Shown: positions 66 to 40,689 of the stretch, piece by piece
Numbering within the stretch: position 1 is the stretch's first letter
Layout: each line of letters begins with the position of its first letter
Assembly (NCBI GenBank): GCA_036387335.1
Contig: DASVTZ010000210.1
Span: 1 to 41,052, forward strand
Length of the DNA: 41,052 nt
Origin: Longimicrobium sp.
GTDB taxonomy: Bacteria; Gemmatimonadota; Gemmatimonadetes; Longimicrobiales; Longimicrobiaceae
Direction of reading: 5' to 3'
Position numbers and translations under genes: made by a program
The notes under the pieces: generated by a model
What the model was told of the DNA's origin: nothing
The model's database searches: none
What the model saw: only the letters and a program-made list of their open reading frames with translations

Positions 66-325
66 GGGGCCCCCTCCCCCCGACCCCCTCCCCCGCCTGC
101 GGGGGCGCAGGGCGGGGGAGGGGGAGAAAACCGTGTGCGCCCCACAGATCCGGTAGGGGCGCGATTTATCGCGCCCGTGGCCGGCGCGGCTCCGACCCCC
201 GTCCACCGGCACCCAAACCCGTAGGGGCTGCCCCACGTGGCTGCCCGTGCCCGCCCCGGCGCCACCGCCCGCCTCACGCGCAAGGCCCAACCATTCCCCA
301 TTCCCGATTCCCCATTCCCCGCAGT
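66..325 (+). repeat. Composite intergenic repeat A: C/G-rich block plus two-unit hairpin array
   Basis: No gene is seen here. A C/G-rich block (about 66-125) is followed by two hairpin units. The first (157-176) has a perfect 9-bp stem, GGGCGCGAT with ATCGCGCCC. The second (225-246) has an imperfect stem. Both are preceded by GTAGGGGC and followed by GTG, and their stems start 68 bp apart. The stretch ends with near-perfect 7-bp ATTCCCC repeats (293-320) close to the stop codon of the minus-strand response regulator. Block plus first hairpin recur almost unchanged at 11010-11125. Confidence 0.8.
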
Positions 326-3149: not shown

Positions 3150-3433
3150 GGCTTCCCCTCCCAGCGTGAGTGCTTGCTCTCTCGACCGCGGGCCTGCGTT
3201 CTGATGGTAACACCCCCGCGGGGGTGGGGGAAGGCGGCGGGGGCCCCCTCCCCCGCTCGTTCCTCGCGGCCCCTCCCCAAACTGCGGGGGAGGGGCGGTA
3301 CGCGGGCATCTCCGCGCGTTTCGCACGGGTCCCATCACCGGGCGCCGCTCCGTCGCCCATTGCGCGCAACAACGCCCGGTAGGGGCAGACCTGCGTGTCT
3401 GCCCTCCGTCGCGCCCACGGGTATGCCGCGACG
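3150..3433 (+). repeat. Composite intergenic repeat D: C/G-rich block plus one hairpin unit
   Basis: No convincing gene is present. The C/G-rich block (about 3225-3300) has its near reverse complement at 35660-35730. One hairpin unit follows at 3383-3404, with stem GGGCAGAC/GTCTGCCC and loop CTGCGT, preceded by GGTAG. The end lies 30 bp from the stop codon of the minus-strand gene at 3434, the same geometry as in the other copies. The stretch must also hold the promoter of the small gene at 3149, but I see no clear boxes. Confidence 0.75.
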
Positions 3434-7306: not shown

Positions 7307-7423
7307 CGCGTGCTCCGGTTGTGGGCCCCACCCCCAGCGTCGCTCCGCGACGCATCCCCCTCCCCCAAAACTGCCTGGGGGAGGGGGAGGTTGGAAAGGG
7401 GGCGGGTGGGGTGTTGTATCGCG
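7307..7423 (+). repeat. C/G-rich intergenic repeat block
   Basis: No gene. The segment about 7320-7395 is nearly the reverse complement of 35735-35790 and contains the short inverted repeat AGCGTCGCTCCGCGACGC. It lies between the stop of the LarA-like gene and the start of the FAH-family gene, so any shared transcript carries it. No hairpin array follows this copy. Confidence 0.75.
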
Positions 7424-10981: not shown

Positions 10982-11363
10982 GCCGCCTTTGTGTTGGGTG
11001 TGGTGGGGCGGAGGGCCCCCTCCCCCCGGCCCCCTCCCCCGCCTGCGGGGGCGCAGGGCGGGTGAGGGGGAGAACTCCGCGCGCGTCGCACAGATCCGGT
11101 AGGGGCGCGATTTATCGCGCCCGTGCCCGCCGCCGCTCCGCCGCACTGCCCCACGCACACCGCCGCCCGGTAGGGGCAGACCTGCGTGTCTGCCCGCCCT
11201 CGCCCCGGCCGCGACTCTCGCCATTCGGCACCCACACCCCTTGGCGCAGACCTGCGTGTCTGCCCACCCTCGCCCGACCTCGACACTGGCGATTTGGGCA
11301 TCCACACCCGTAGGGGCAGCCCCACGTGGCTGCCCGTGCCCGCCGCGACGCCGTACCCTGCCT
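10982..11363 (+). repeat. Composite intergenic repeat B: C/G-rich block plus four-unit hairpin array
   Basis: No gene in 382 bp. After a C/G-rich block (about 11010-11075) come four hairpin units with stems starting near 11103, 11174, 11244 and 11314, so the period is 70-71 bp. Stems: GGGCGCGAT/ATCGCGCCC, GGGCAGAC/GTCTGCCC, a decayed copy of the latter, and GGGCAGCC/GGCTGCCC. The parts between stems are also weakly similar, ending in (C)CACACCCGTAG-like sequence. The last unit ends 28 bp from the enolase-family stop codon. Confidence 0.85.
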
Positions 11364-12551: not shown

Positions 12552-12705
12552 CGGCGTGCTCCGGGTGCGTTAGGCAGGCGACGGTGACGGGGCGGGCACG
12601 GGCAGCCACGCCGGGCTGCCCCTACCAGGGATTTTTCCGCGACCAACATAGATCGCGGCGAGCGCCTCCCCCCTCTCTCGATAACAGAGGCGCCAGCCTC
12701 TGCTG
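12552..12705. repeat. Intergenic hairpins between galK and the dehydratase gene
   Basis: Two structures are present. A minus-oriented unit of the GTAGGGGC hairpin family has stem GGGCAGCC/GGCTGCCC at 12600-12621. A second inverted repeat at about 12678-12711 pairs GATAACAG and AGGC with GCCT and CTGTTATC, with a 3-nt bulge, and runs into the galK stop codon. The latter may end galK transcripts, though there is no T-tract. Unlike the other copies, this GTAGGGGC unit points away from the preceding gene's stop codon. Confidence 0.65.
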
Positions 12706-15934: not shown

Positions 15935-17062
15935 TCAGCGGTCACACGGCTCGCCCGACGGCACACGCATCCGCACCCCGGACGCGACCGGCTCCCCGAA
16001 CTCCGGCGACCCGTCCGCCCGCCAGGTGAAGCGCTGTGCGCGGATCACGCGGTTCCAGTTGGGGAGCGTGTCGACCTTGGCGTGGTAGATGATCCAGTCC
16101 TCCGTGCCGTCCGGCGACTTCGTGAAGCCGTTGTGACCCGGCCCGTGCACCCCGTTGGCCGCGGCGAACACGGGGCCGCTCTTGGTCCAGCTCGAGCGCT
16201 GCATGGGATCCGCCGTGGGGCTGTTGAGGCGAAGCTGGCCCAGGCGGTACGCCGGCGTCCACGACTCACGCGTGGAGTAGATGATGAAGACCTGCCCGTT
16301 GCGCTCCAGGATCTGCGGCCCCTCGTTCAGGTCCAGCCCATCTTTCGGGTCCACGCGCCGCTCCCAGCTCTCGGTGGGGGCGGAGATCTGCGCGCGCGGC
16401 CCGCTGATGGTGTGCGGGTCGGACATGCGCGCCACGTAGATGTACTGCGGCGTGCGGGCCAGCGGCGTGTTGTTCTCCCACCCGGACCAGAAGCCGTAGA
16501 GCTGCCCGTTCAGCCGGTGCACCGTGAAGTCGATCGCCCACACGTCGTCCGCTCGCGTGGAGAGCTCGCCGCCGGTGTCGAGCTGGCCGAGGTCCTCCCA
16601 CGCGCCCTGCGGATTATCGCCCGTGGCGCGCAGTACCCCCGCGCGCTGGTAGATGAACGGCGCGTCGGCGGGGCCGGGGCGGCCTGCGGCGTAGTAGATG
16701 TACCAGCGGCCGTCCACGCGGCGGATCTCGGGGGCCCACACGTGCGTCTGGTTCCAGCCGCTGTCCGGCGACGTCCACACGCGCACGCTGTCGCGCATGG
16801 GATCGATGAGCTTCCTCGACCGGAAGACCCACACGCTGCTATTTTGCCCCTCGGGGTTCTTGGACTGCGCCATGTAGTACCAGCCGTCGCTCAGCTCCAC
16901 CCACGGGTCCGCCCCCCGCGCCACGGGGTTGGCGAACGTGCACGCGGCGGCCGATGGCGCCGGAGTGGCCGCGGGCGGCGGCGTGCACGCGCCGAGCAGG
17001 GCGAAGGCGAGCAGGGCGGTCCCATTGCGGGCGAGCATGATCCGACCACGATTGCGATTCAT
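15935..17062 (-). CDS. GH43-family glycosidase lipoprotein (copy 1)
   Basis: The 375-residue protein has a lipoprotein signal ([10 protein letters not shown], lipidated Cys26) and a five-bladed GH43 propeller. The likely catalytic set is Asp52 in GADPWV (base), Asp178 in WAIDFT and Glu247 in LNEGPQ (acid). Family members are mostly alpha-L-arabinofuranosidases, xylosidases and arabinanases, with some exo-galactanases. It is a clear paralogue of the plus-strand gene at 33083 (the motifs [19 protein letters not shown] and YSTRESW are shared). The start at 17062 is chosen for GGGGA 9 nt upstream. An ATG at 17038 would widen the gap to the divergent gene at 17066. Confidence 0.9.
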
Positions 17063-23129: not shown

Positions 23130-23163
23130 AAATGGGGGGCGGCGGCTCAGGGTGCTGTGCCCC

Positions 23164-23191
23164 ATTCCCCATTCCCCATTCCCCATTCCCC
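23164..23191. repeat. Four tandem ATTCCCC repeats abutting a stop codon
   Basis: Four exact 7-bp copies end directly at the stop codon of the binding-protein gene (stop 23192-23194 on the minus strand). A slightly decayed run of the same unit (293-320) lies 5 bp from the stop of the response regulator at 326. Confidence 0.85.
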
Positions 23192-24157
23192 TCAGTACGC
23201 TTCCGCCACGAACCGCGCCGCATTGGTCCGGTCAAAAAACCGATCCTCGATCAGCTTCTTCGTCGGCACCTTTTCGCCCTTGCGCACCTGCTCGATGGTC
23301 TCGAAGGCGATGGGGCCGAAGCGGGGGTTGCTCTCGACGGTGGCGCCGAGCTCGCCGCGCTGGATGGCTTCGAGGGCGGCGCGCTGGCCGTCGATGGAGA
23401 CGATCTTGACCTGGGTGCCGGGGGTGAGCCCCGCGGCGCGCAGCGCCTGGATCGCGCCCAGCGCCATCTCGTCGTTGTGCGCGTAGACGGCGGTGATCTG
23501 CTTGCCCAGCGACTGAGCGATGTTCTGCATCACGCTCTGCCCCTGCGCCCGCGAGAACTCGCCCGTTTGCGAAGCCAGGATCTTCATCCCCGGGTGCCGG
23601 GCGATGACCTCGCGGAACCCCTTGGCGCGGTCGGCGGCCACCGAGGAGCCGGGAGTGCCGGTCAGCTCCACGATCCCCGCGGTGCCCCCCGTCTCCTTCA
23701 CCAGCCACTCCGCCGCCCGCTTCCCCTGGTCGATGAAGTTGGAGCCGAGGAAGGTGACGAAGTCCTCGCCCGGCGTCCCCTCCGCCTCGCGGTCCACCAG
23801 GATCACGGGGATGTTGGCGTCGCGGGCGGCCTGCAGCGCCGGGGCCAGTCCCTCGAACTCGCGCGGCGCCAGCAGGATGACGTCCACGCGCCGCGCGATC
23901 AGGTCCTCCACGTCCGCCACCTGCTTGGCCGTCTGGTCCTGCGCGTCGGTGACGACGAGCTCCACGCCGCGCTTCGCCGCCTCGGCGCGCAGGCTGGCCG
24001 TCTGCGCCATGCGCCAGGGGTTGTCGTGCCCCATCTGCGAGAAGCCCACGGTGAACTTGCCGTCGTCCGCGCTTTTGCGGCAGCCGGCCAGCGCGGCGAG
24101 GGCGAGCACGGGAAGCACTCCCGCGCGCATCAGGGTACGGAACCGGGGCAGGGGCAT
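23192..24157 (-). CDS. ytfQ: Sugar-binding lipoprotein of an ABC importer (YtfQ-like)
   Basis: The 321-residue periplasmic binding protein of the ribose/galactose type has a lipoprotein signal (VLALAALAGC). The mature part begins FTVGFSQMGHDNPWR and contains VYAHNDEMALGAIQAL, LTGTPGSSVAADRAKGF and SIDGQ. From memory these are close to E. coli YtfQ, the galactofuranose-binding protein. Related systems carry arabinose in its furanose form, so both sugars are candidates. It is first in its transcription unit, with a good promoter and operator upstream. The ATG at 24130 is an alternative start. Confidence 0.92.
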   Translation of the reverse strand: MPLPRFRTLMRAGVLPVLALAALAGCRKSADDGKFTVGFSQMGHDNPWRMAQTASLRAEAAKRGVELVVTDAQDQTAKQVADVEDLIARRVDVILLAPREFEGLAPALQAARDANIPVILVDREAEGTPGEDFVTFLGSNFIDQGKRAAEWLVKETGGTAGIVELTGTPGSSVAADRAKGFREVIARHPGMKILASQTGEFSRAQGQSVMQNIAQSLGKQITAVYAHNDEMALGAIQALRAAGLTPGTQVKIVSIDGQRAALEAIQRGELGATVESNPRFGPIAFETIEQVRKGEKVPTKKLIEDRFFDRTNAARFVAEAY

Positions 24158-33082: not shown

Positions 33083-34144
33083 ATGAACCGTTCCCACACC
33101 TCCGCCTGCGCCGCGCTGGCGCTGCTGCTGGCCGCCTGCTCGGGCGACAGCACGCCCCCGCCCATCGTGGAGCCGGTGCAGTGCACCTTCAGCAACCCGC
33201 GCGCGTCGGGCGCGGACCCGTGGGTGGTGCGGGACGGCGGCGCGTACTACATGGTGCAGTCGCGCGACAACGGCATCCACGTGTCGCGCTCCGCGAACCT
33301 CACCGAGGTCGCGGGGACGGGGGTGCGCGTGTGGGCCGCGCCGGACACGGGGTGGAACCGCACCAACATCTGGGCGCCGGAGCTTCACCACGTCGGTGAC
33401 CGCTGGTACATCTACTACGCGGGCGGCCGGGCGGGGCCGCCTTACGTCCACCAGCGCGCGGGCGTGCTGGAATCCGTGGGCACCGATCCGCAGGGCGCCT
33501 ACGTGGACCGCGGGATGCTCTACACGGGCGACGACCTGGCCGGCGGCGCGCCCAGCCGCTGGGCGATCGACCTGACGGTGGGGGAGGTAAACGGGCAGCG
33601 CATCGCCGTCTGGTCGGGCTGGGAGACGGACGCCACCACCGACCGCACGCCGCAGCACCTGTACGCCGCGCCGATGTCCAACCCCTACACCATCAGCGGC
33701 AACCGCGTGCGCATCAGCTCGCCGGTGGAGGCGTGGGAGCGCGGCACCGAGCTGGACCTGCAGGAGGGGCCGCAGTTCCTGAAGCACGGCGGGGCGACCT
33801 TCCTCATCTACTCCACGCGCGAGTCGTGGCTGGAGCACTATCGCCTGGGCCAGCTCCGCCTGACCGGCACCGACCCGCTCCGGGCGGCGAGCTGGACGAA
33901 GAGCGGCCCCGTCTTCCAGCCGATTCCCGGCGTTCCGGGCGTGGGCCACGCCAGCTTCACCGTCTCTCCGGACGGCACGGAGGACTGGATCGTGTACCAC
34001 GCCAAGACCAGCACCACGCCGGGATGGGACCGGGTGATCCGCATGCAGAAGTTCACCTGGAACGCGGACAACTCGCCCAACTTCGGCTCCCCCGCCGAGT
34101 CGGGCCGCCTCCTCACGAGGCCCTCTGGGGAGTGCACGCCCTGA
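33083..34144 (+). CDS. GH43-family glycosidase lipoprotein (copy 3)
   Basis: The protein has 353 residues with lipobox ALLLAAC (Cys19). Probable catalytic residues are Asp45 in GADPWV, Asp163 in WAIDLT and Glu228 in LQEGPQ. It is a paralogue of the minus-strand gene at 15935-17062, sharing ordered motifs along the whole length. Being next to susCD it probably trims side chains at the cell surface. An arabinofuranosidase role fits the furanose importer, but the subfamily is not certain. The ATG at 33083 is chosen because the signal peptide starts there. Confidence 0.92.
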   Translation: MNRSHTSACAALALLLAACSGDSTPPPIVEPVQCTFSNPRASGADPWVVRDGGAYYMVQSRDNGIHVSRSANLTEVAGTGVRVWAAPDTGWNRTNIWAPELHHVGDRWYIYYAGGRAGPPYVHQRAGVLESVGTDPQGAYVDRGMLYTGDDLAGGAPSRWAIDLTVGEVNGQRIAVWSGWETDATTDRTPQHLYAAPMSNPYTISGNRVRISSPVEAWERGTELDLQEGPQFLKHGGATFLIYSTRESWLEHYRLGQLRLTGTDPLRAASWTKSGPVFQPIPGVPGVGHASFTVSPDGTEDWIVYHAKTSTTPGWDRVIRMQKFTWNADNSPNFGSPAESGRLLTRPSGECTP

Positions 34145-35434: not shown

Positions 35435-35790
35435 ACGCGGGCGTCACGCCCCGATCGCCGGCGACGGCGCGTGCGCGGGGCACGGGCAGCCACGTGGGGC
35501 AGCCCCTACGGAGATCTGCGTGCGATACGGGCGTCGGGGGCACGCGAAAGGCGGGCGGACACGCAGGTCCGCCCCTACGAGGTTGGCGCGCGCCGGCGCG
35601 AGGTCGGGGACGCGATCTGTGCGCCGCGCAGTCGTCGAAGCCGCGCACGGATGCACACCAAACGCCCCTCCCCCGCGGTTTGGGGGAGGGGCCGCGAGGA
35701 ACGAGCGGGGGAGGGGGCCCTTCTCCCCCTCCCCCGGGCGGTTTCGGGGGAGGGGGATGCGTCGCGGAGCGACGCTGGGGGTGGGGCCCT
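35435..35790 (-). repeat. Composite intergenic repeat C: C/G-rich blocks plus two-unit hairpin array
   Basis: No gene in 356 bp between two convergent genes. Read on the minus strand, C/G-rich blocks (35790 to about 35655) precede two hairpins, 35574-35553 (GGGCGGAC/GTCCGCCC) and 35505-35484 (imperfect), starting 69 bp apart. The blocks match those at 3225-3300 and 7320-7395. The array ends 50 bp from the galM stop. Confidence 0.8.
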
Positions 35791-40574: not shown

Positions 40575-40591
40575 TCCGGCCCAACAGCAAG

Positions 40592-40664
40592 TCTCACGCA
40601 GAGGCGCAGAGACGCGGGAGCGGGCGCGGAGTTCTCTCCTGCGTCTCTGCGTCTCTGCGTGAGA
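40592..40664. repeat. Inverted repeat with 24-bp arms
   Basis: The arms at 40592-40615 and 40641-40664 pair with one mismatch. The left arm starts TCTCACGCAGAGGCGCAGAG, the same family as the arms at 34154 and 34306. It lies between tetR and the EamA gene and may act as a bidirectional terminator. Confidence 0.8.
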
Positions 40665-40689
40665 TTGTCTTTTCCCGGACGGCATCGCG

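Follow-up and report, generated by a model that had tools for sequence, protein, structure and literature searches.

Hairpins in the window

The window, by which we mean the whole stretch of 41,052 nucleotides analysed here, carries ten short hairpins, each of which belongs to one of three REP types (A, B, and C, described below). They stand singly or in AC, ABBC, and BC arrays, and a palindromic module lies to the left of two of the arrays. The features are as follows.

67..152, + strand: P2-type palindromic module to the left of the AC array; resembles 11013-11098
153..176, + strand: type A REP hairpin, opening the AC array
221..246, + strand: type C REP hairpin with a T.T mismatch, AC array, 68 bp past the A hairpin
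3379..3404, + strand: type B REP hairpin, single; the orthologous site in genome G006 also has a B
11013..11098, + strand: palindromic left module, P2 type; resembles 67-152
11099..11122, + strand: type A REP hairpin, opening the ABBC array
11170..11195, + strand: type B REP hairpin, ABBC array
11240..11265, + strand: type B hairpin, decayed (CTTGGCGC for GTAGGGGC), ABBC array
11310..11335, + strand: type C REP hairpin, ABBC array; the orthologous C is retained in G006
12600..12625, - strand: type C REP hairpin, single
35484..35509, - strand: type C REP hairpin with a T.T mismatch, second in the BC array
35553..35578, - strand: type B REP hairpin, opening a BC array between convergent genes

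All ten copies listed in the first-pass annotation were found at their places in the window; the positions that it gave for the plus-strand copies are those of the GGGC of the stem, and the GTAG begins 4 bases before. Successive units in the window were spaced 68, 71, 70, 70, and 69 bp apart. When the window was compared with itself, 67-212 and 11013-11158 were 87% identical, and an Rfam search of the window gave no RNA family over the gathering score.

Three hairpin types of the REP kind

The genome to which the window belongs (G000) comprises 5.82 Mb in 265 contigs, and a sample of 1.48 Mb, a quarter of it, was used for hairpin types, array order, and gene context. The GTAGGGGC hairpins in the sample fell into three discrete types, with the sequences GTAGGGGCGCGATTYATCGCGCCC (type A), GTAGGGGCrGACCTGCGTGTCyGCCC (type B), and GTAGGGGCnGCCCCrCGTGGCyGCCC (type C). 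Exact patterns matched 172 A and 492 B/C hairpins genome-wide (664 in all), whereas a reversed control pattern gave no match in the same genome; the hairpins are thus not chance occurrences, and what was noticed in the window is real and genome-wide. In size they correspond to GTAG-type REP palindromes, which have 20 to 40 nt, a stem of 6 to 13 bp, and a short loop: they are 24 to 26 nt long with a stem of 8 to 9 bp and a loop of 2 to 6 nt. They share with REPs an unpaired 5' GTAG foot, each base of which was 95 to 100% conserved in all three types, as well as a high copy number and an extragenic location: none of the 97 arrays in the sample lay inside a predicted gene (self-trained codon model; coding fraction, 0.84). 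Predicted single-stranded DNA folds of the A, B, and C units matched the stems, and the T.T form folded worse.

It had been proposed that the stem arms differ between copies yet pair within each copy. This was borne out between the types and at one base pair within each type, but not throughout. Exactly one pair per type covaried, a result matched by 0 of 2000 shuffles: pair 10:19 in type A (C-G 40, T-A 5, other 4), pair 9:22 in type B (A-T 51, G-C 8, other 4), and pair 9:22 in type C (A-T 26, G-C 10). At this last pair, 37 of the 74 type C copies had a C.T or T.T mismatch, and in the window the type C copies at 225 and 35484 are not fully compensated because of the T.T mismatch in GGGCTGCC/GGCTGCCC. 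Most of the compensation reflects the contrast between the three discrete types. The proposal that hairpin structure is kept was supported.

Order and spacing of units

The arrays have an order that escaped the first-pass annotation. In the 1.48-Mb sample, the A-B-C order was kept strictly, with all units in one orientation, by 60 of 63 mixed-type clusters; 21.9 were expected, and none of 100,000 shuffles gave a value as high. Same-strand neighbors were BC in 45 cases, AB in 31, AC in 12, and any other combination in 5; altogether, 95 neighbors were on the same strand and 2 on opposite strands. Spacing was 64 to 74 bp in all but one of 93 same-strand neighbor pairs (the exception being 88), such that the unit of about 70 bp and the regular spacing described for the window extend beyond it. 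The order recurred in 15 of 15 multi-unit arrays of G006, and neighboring places in genome G004 agreed with it by inspection. A scan of a genome-contig collection for the ABC pattern returned one named genome, a Longimicrobium MAG; the window's own species is possibly absent from that collection.

The tails that follow the hairpins are also type specific in part. A GTG-type tail was present after 74 of 74 C hairpins and after 0 of 62 B hairpins, and A hairpins had either tail (41 and 12). Both tails were likewise found in AC arrays, which would follow from unit loss through recombination between imperfect repeats of 69 bp. Mantel tests gave no correlation among spacer similarities along ABC arrays, and we therefore rejected recent copying of whole ABC arrays en bloc as unsupported.

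Units that come and go in 69-bp steps and A hairpins that carry B-type tails could also suggest an ordinary tandem minisatellite that grows by slippage, with the palindromes as a side effect. However, the units occur at hundreds of dispersed sites, as three discrete types in one order, and the dispersal already observed disfavors slippage. Moreover, the hairpins are nearly identical and the spacers diverged: mean pairwise identity was 93 to 96% for the hairpins versus 53 to 58% for the first 30 nt of the tail, where composition alone would give 37 to 39%. Cognate hairpins also occur in transposase genes (see below), and we regard slippage as a most improbable account of the family. CRISPR was ruled out by the pattern of repeats and spacers, in agreement with the original description of the locus as array-like but not CRISPR: regularly spaced repeats are common to both, but here there are three repeat types, the spacers are related, and the sites number in the hundreds, with 97 clusters in the 1.48-Mb sample alone.

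RAYT genes with embedded hairpins

A search for the REP-associated transposase family revealed a RAYT-like Y1/HUH gene in the same genome (G000:C181; protein P0001). Its only NCBIfam match was to REP_Tyr_transpos (NF047646), at 55.8 bits; this is below the curated cut-off of 80 because an insert of ~45 residues splits the match. The same family was matched by 19 of 19 aligned relatives. In the alignment of RAYTs, the HxH and WQR columns were invariant and the Y nearly so, as befits an HUH/tyrosine transposase, and the insert sat at one place. The sole PDB profile match was 4er8, a REP-associated transposase in complex with a REP hairpin, and Foldseek matched the AlphaFold model to 4er8 and to IS200/IS605 TnpA. 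In the model, the insert is predicted as an unstructured, low-confidence loop (residues ~95-138).

The insert contains hairpins. In the middle of the P0001 gene, VGADLRVCP is a type B hairpin read in frame and GAHAGAPL is an inverted second hairpin, and the RAYT gene of G004 has the same pair, type B included; in the RAYT of G006, each end of the insert bears a type A hairpin. The pair within the gene consists of two inverted REPs with the GTAG outside. Its right-hand hairpin type was not found in the 1.48 Mb sampled, and type C was not seen embedded in any RAYT. A canonical REPtron arrangement was not found either, as no inverted REPs flanked the RAYT gene within 700 bp outside it in G000, G004, or G006.

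A phylum-wide search gave RAYT matches in 39 of 395 genomes. Among the 25 RAYT frames recognized by motif, 15 had hairpins with a GTAG foot in the same loop, between the HUH and WQRxY motifs, and these had many different stems; another 3 had a hairpin elsewhere in the stop-to-stop frame, and several frames without a hairpin had hairpins outside but within 700 bp. RAYT genes across the phylum are recorded as L226-L255, and the stem of the loop hairpin varies between genera. At least 40 GTAGGGGC hairpin matches, as read off a per-genome table, were present in 22 of 39 genomes with a RAYT versus 5 of 356 without one (Fisher p = 5e-21, with genomes treated as unrelated). G005 has 30 type A copies and no RAYT match beyond IS200-like genes; this genome was outside the phylum-wide RAYT search.

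IS200/IS605-type TnpA genes also occur in G000, at C169:5970-6308 (L047, with an in-frame TAG) and C7:3414-3752 (L031), and most congeners have similar genes. The two strong PF01797 genes were considered as the mobilizer and rejected: they are IS200/IS605 TnpA-like, of a kind common to congeners that lack the repeats, and a search for GTAG hairpins flanking them gave only chance or distant ones.

Formally, the ABC composite might be a PATE-like MITE, a miniature transposon of an IS200/IS605 element, whose mobilizer would be the IS200-type TnpA of C7 or C169 and not the RAYT. The genome does have two IS200-like TnpA genes, and IS200/IS605 elements likewise recognize hairpins marked by a guide tetranucleotide on the 5' side (PMC8266576). 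However, IS200-like genes are equally present in congeners without the repeats, the C7 copy has no flanking GTAG hairpins and the nearest one to the C169 copy is ~1 kb off, and hairpin abundance instead tracks the presence of a RAYT. A miniature transposon of this kind therefore seems to us quite unlikely. We favor the RAYT: association, together with the known activity of its family, suggests that P0001 moves the A, B, and C units.

Gene context and turnover between species

The arrays are placed unevenly with respect to genes. Their contexts were codirectional in 45 cases, convergent in 32, and divergent in 4, against a background of 351 codirectional, 102 convergent, and 141 divergent gaps of at least 100 bp; arrays are thus enriched in convergent gaps and avoid divergent ones (p = 2e-8). 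Between codirectional genes their orientation was random (22 versus 23).

Comparison with G006, which is syntenic with G000 and has ~93% DNA identity in genes, revealed turnover of units at orthologous sites. Orthologous gaps held ABBC in our genome versus a decayed A and C in G006, ABC versus AB, and B versus none, and one orthologous C had the opposite orientation in G006. For 14 shared units, mean identity was 92% in the hairpins, 71% in the tails, and 66% in the 40 nt upstream (shuffled, ~59%), and orthologous gaps without repeats had a median of 89%; array spacers thus change faster than ordinary intergenic DNA, and the hairpins do not. A break of homology exactly at the GTAG (14 sites, p = 0.03; clear by eye at four) is only suggestive. 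The hairpin family is lineage specific, being absent from several congeners.

These contrasts bear on whether a host RNA or DNA function is what chiefly maintains the hairpins, with the RAYT as their origin only. Candidate functions are stabilization of mRNA 3' ends, transcription termination, and binding of a nucleoid protein or of gyrase. The conservation of orthologous hairpins amid adjoining 40-nt stretches that are poorly conserved even by the standard of ordinary gaps would fit such a function, as would the preference for convergent gaps over divergent (promoter) gaps, and the fixed order invites the idea of a functional module. Yet a host function sits poorly with the random orientation between codirectional genes, with hairpins that are not followed by a T run, with the complete lack of the family in close congeners, and with unit content that varies between species so similar in their genes. 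We consider a primary host function possible but rather unlikely; recognition by the transposase is probably what keeps the hairpins uniform.

Relation to known REP systems and a model for the arrays

The features that define GTAG REPs with RAYTs (PMC2817692, PMC3733652, PMC8266576) match those found here. As in the GTAG REP/REPtron system (Nunvar 2010, PMC2817692; PMC3733652), a short palindrome with an unpaired GTAG foot is extragenic and present in high copy number, convergent and codirectional gaps are preferred, a RAYT has cognate hairpins, and abundance follows the RAYT. There are differences, however. Di Nocera 2013 listed Proteobacteria, Cyanobacteria, Chloroflexi, and PVC as hosts, and Gemmatimonadota are not among the phyla listed; RAYTs in that survey had flanking REPs or REPs overlapping the gene ends, and REPs were mostly inverted dimers (PMC3733652), whereas here the REP pair is within the RAYT coding sequence and the three types have a fixed order. 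BIMEs are likewise mosaics of REP types with regular spacing, type-specific spacers, and lengths that vary between strains, but their REPs alternate in orientation, unlike the co-oriented units of the present arrays with their set sequence of types. REPINs (Bertels and Rainey 2011, PMC3116915) resemble the inverted pair inside the RAYT gene and can occur in clustered arrays; the intergenic arrays here are instead made of single units head to tail, without inverted doublets, and REPIN clusters in tandem consist of near-identical copies (PMC3116915), in contrast with A-B-C. In the literature, of which our coverage was incomplete, we found no report of a fixed order of types or of RAYT genes with a REP pair in their middle. 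The phylum, the fixed order, and the REP pairs inside RAYT genes are new, and we conclude that the hairpins constitute a new set of REP families from a phylum not previously listed, with two unusual organizational features.

The reading that best accounts for these observations, and that we hold with considerable confidence, is that the hairpins are RAYT-dispersed REPs in unidirectional, ordered composite arrays. They belong to a Longimicrobium lineage. Each REP, a GTAG foot followed by a GC-rich stem of 8 to 9 bp, would fold in single-stranded DNA and be dispersed by the RAYT; this protein falls in the REP-associated group of Y1/HUH single-strand transposases, and its own gene holds cognate hairpins. 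A unit consists of a hairpin and a C-rich tail of ~43 nt, and units are laid out in one direction between genes in the order A-B-C. The ancestral composite was probably ABC, and whole units would be gained or lost when the 69-bp direct repeats recombine or slip, converting ABC into AC, BC, AB, or ABBC and leaving some A hairpins with a B-type tail. The paired differences in the stems would arise as intact types spread and unpaired mutants were purged or not copied. Of the two possibilities raised initially, spread through a mechanism rewriting both arms fits best, in the form of whole REP hairpins linked to a RAYT transposase.

More speculatively, the RAYT gene of Gemmatimonadota may house its own substrate, with a REP pair, read in frame within one surface loop, that has been kept through many hairpin types and genera and that keeps the gene and its cognate REP linked or allows autoregulation; the A-B-C order might then be a selected module and not a historical accident. 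We doubt this extended proposal more than we credit it. Few bacterial repeats are as abundant as REPs, and their mode of spread and the reason for their clustering still call for an explanation. A fixed order of three co-oriented types provides a natural record of unit gain and loss in arrays. Since REP pairs embedded in the loop, with stems that vary by genus, tie each transposase to its own hairpin without a guess from proximity, RAYT-REP coevolution becomes directly testable.

Other palindromes and repeats

Two further families of intergenic palindromes, without a GTAG foot, often lie just upstream of REP arrays. One has GCCCCTCCCCC..GGGGGAGGGGC with a AGCGAGGAACGAGC linker, and the other has CTCTCTCGATAACAG..TGTTATCGGGAGAG; in the window, the two families occupy 67-152, 11013-11098, 3226-3318, 35642-35789, 7323-7389, and 12630-12700. 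Such a palindrome was present within 150 bp upstream of 53 of 90 arrays and downstream of 18 of 90, compared with 47 of 361 random intergenic windows. Elsewhere in the window, short CCATTCCCCATTCCC tandem repeats stand beside gene ends at 291-336 and 23162-23207, and the stretches 16217-16943 and 33181-33871 are inverted paralogs with 75 to 79% identity, probably duplicated genes. At 40583-40673, a 38-nt inverted repeat with a CTCTGCGTCTCTGCGTGAGA core is followed by a T-rich stretch and resembles a terminator.
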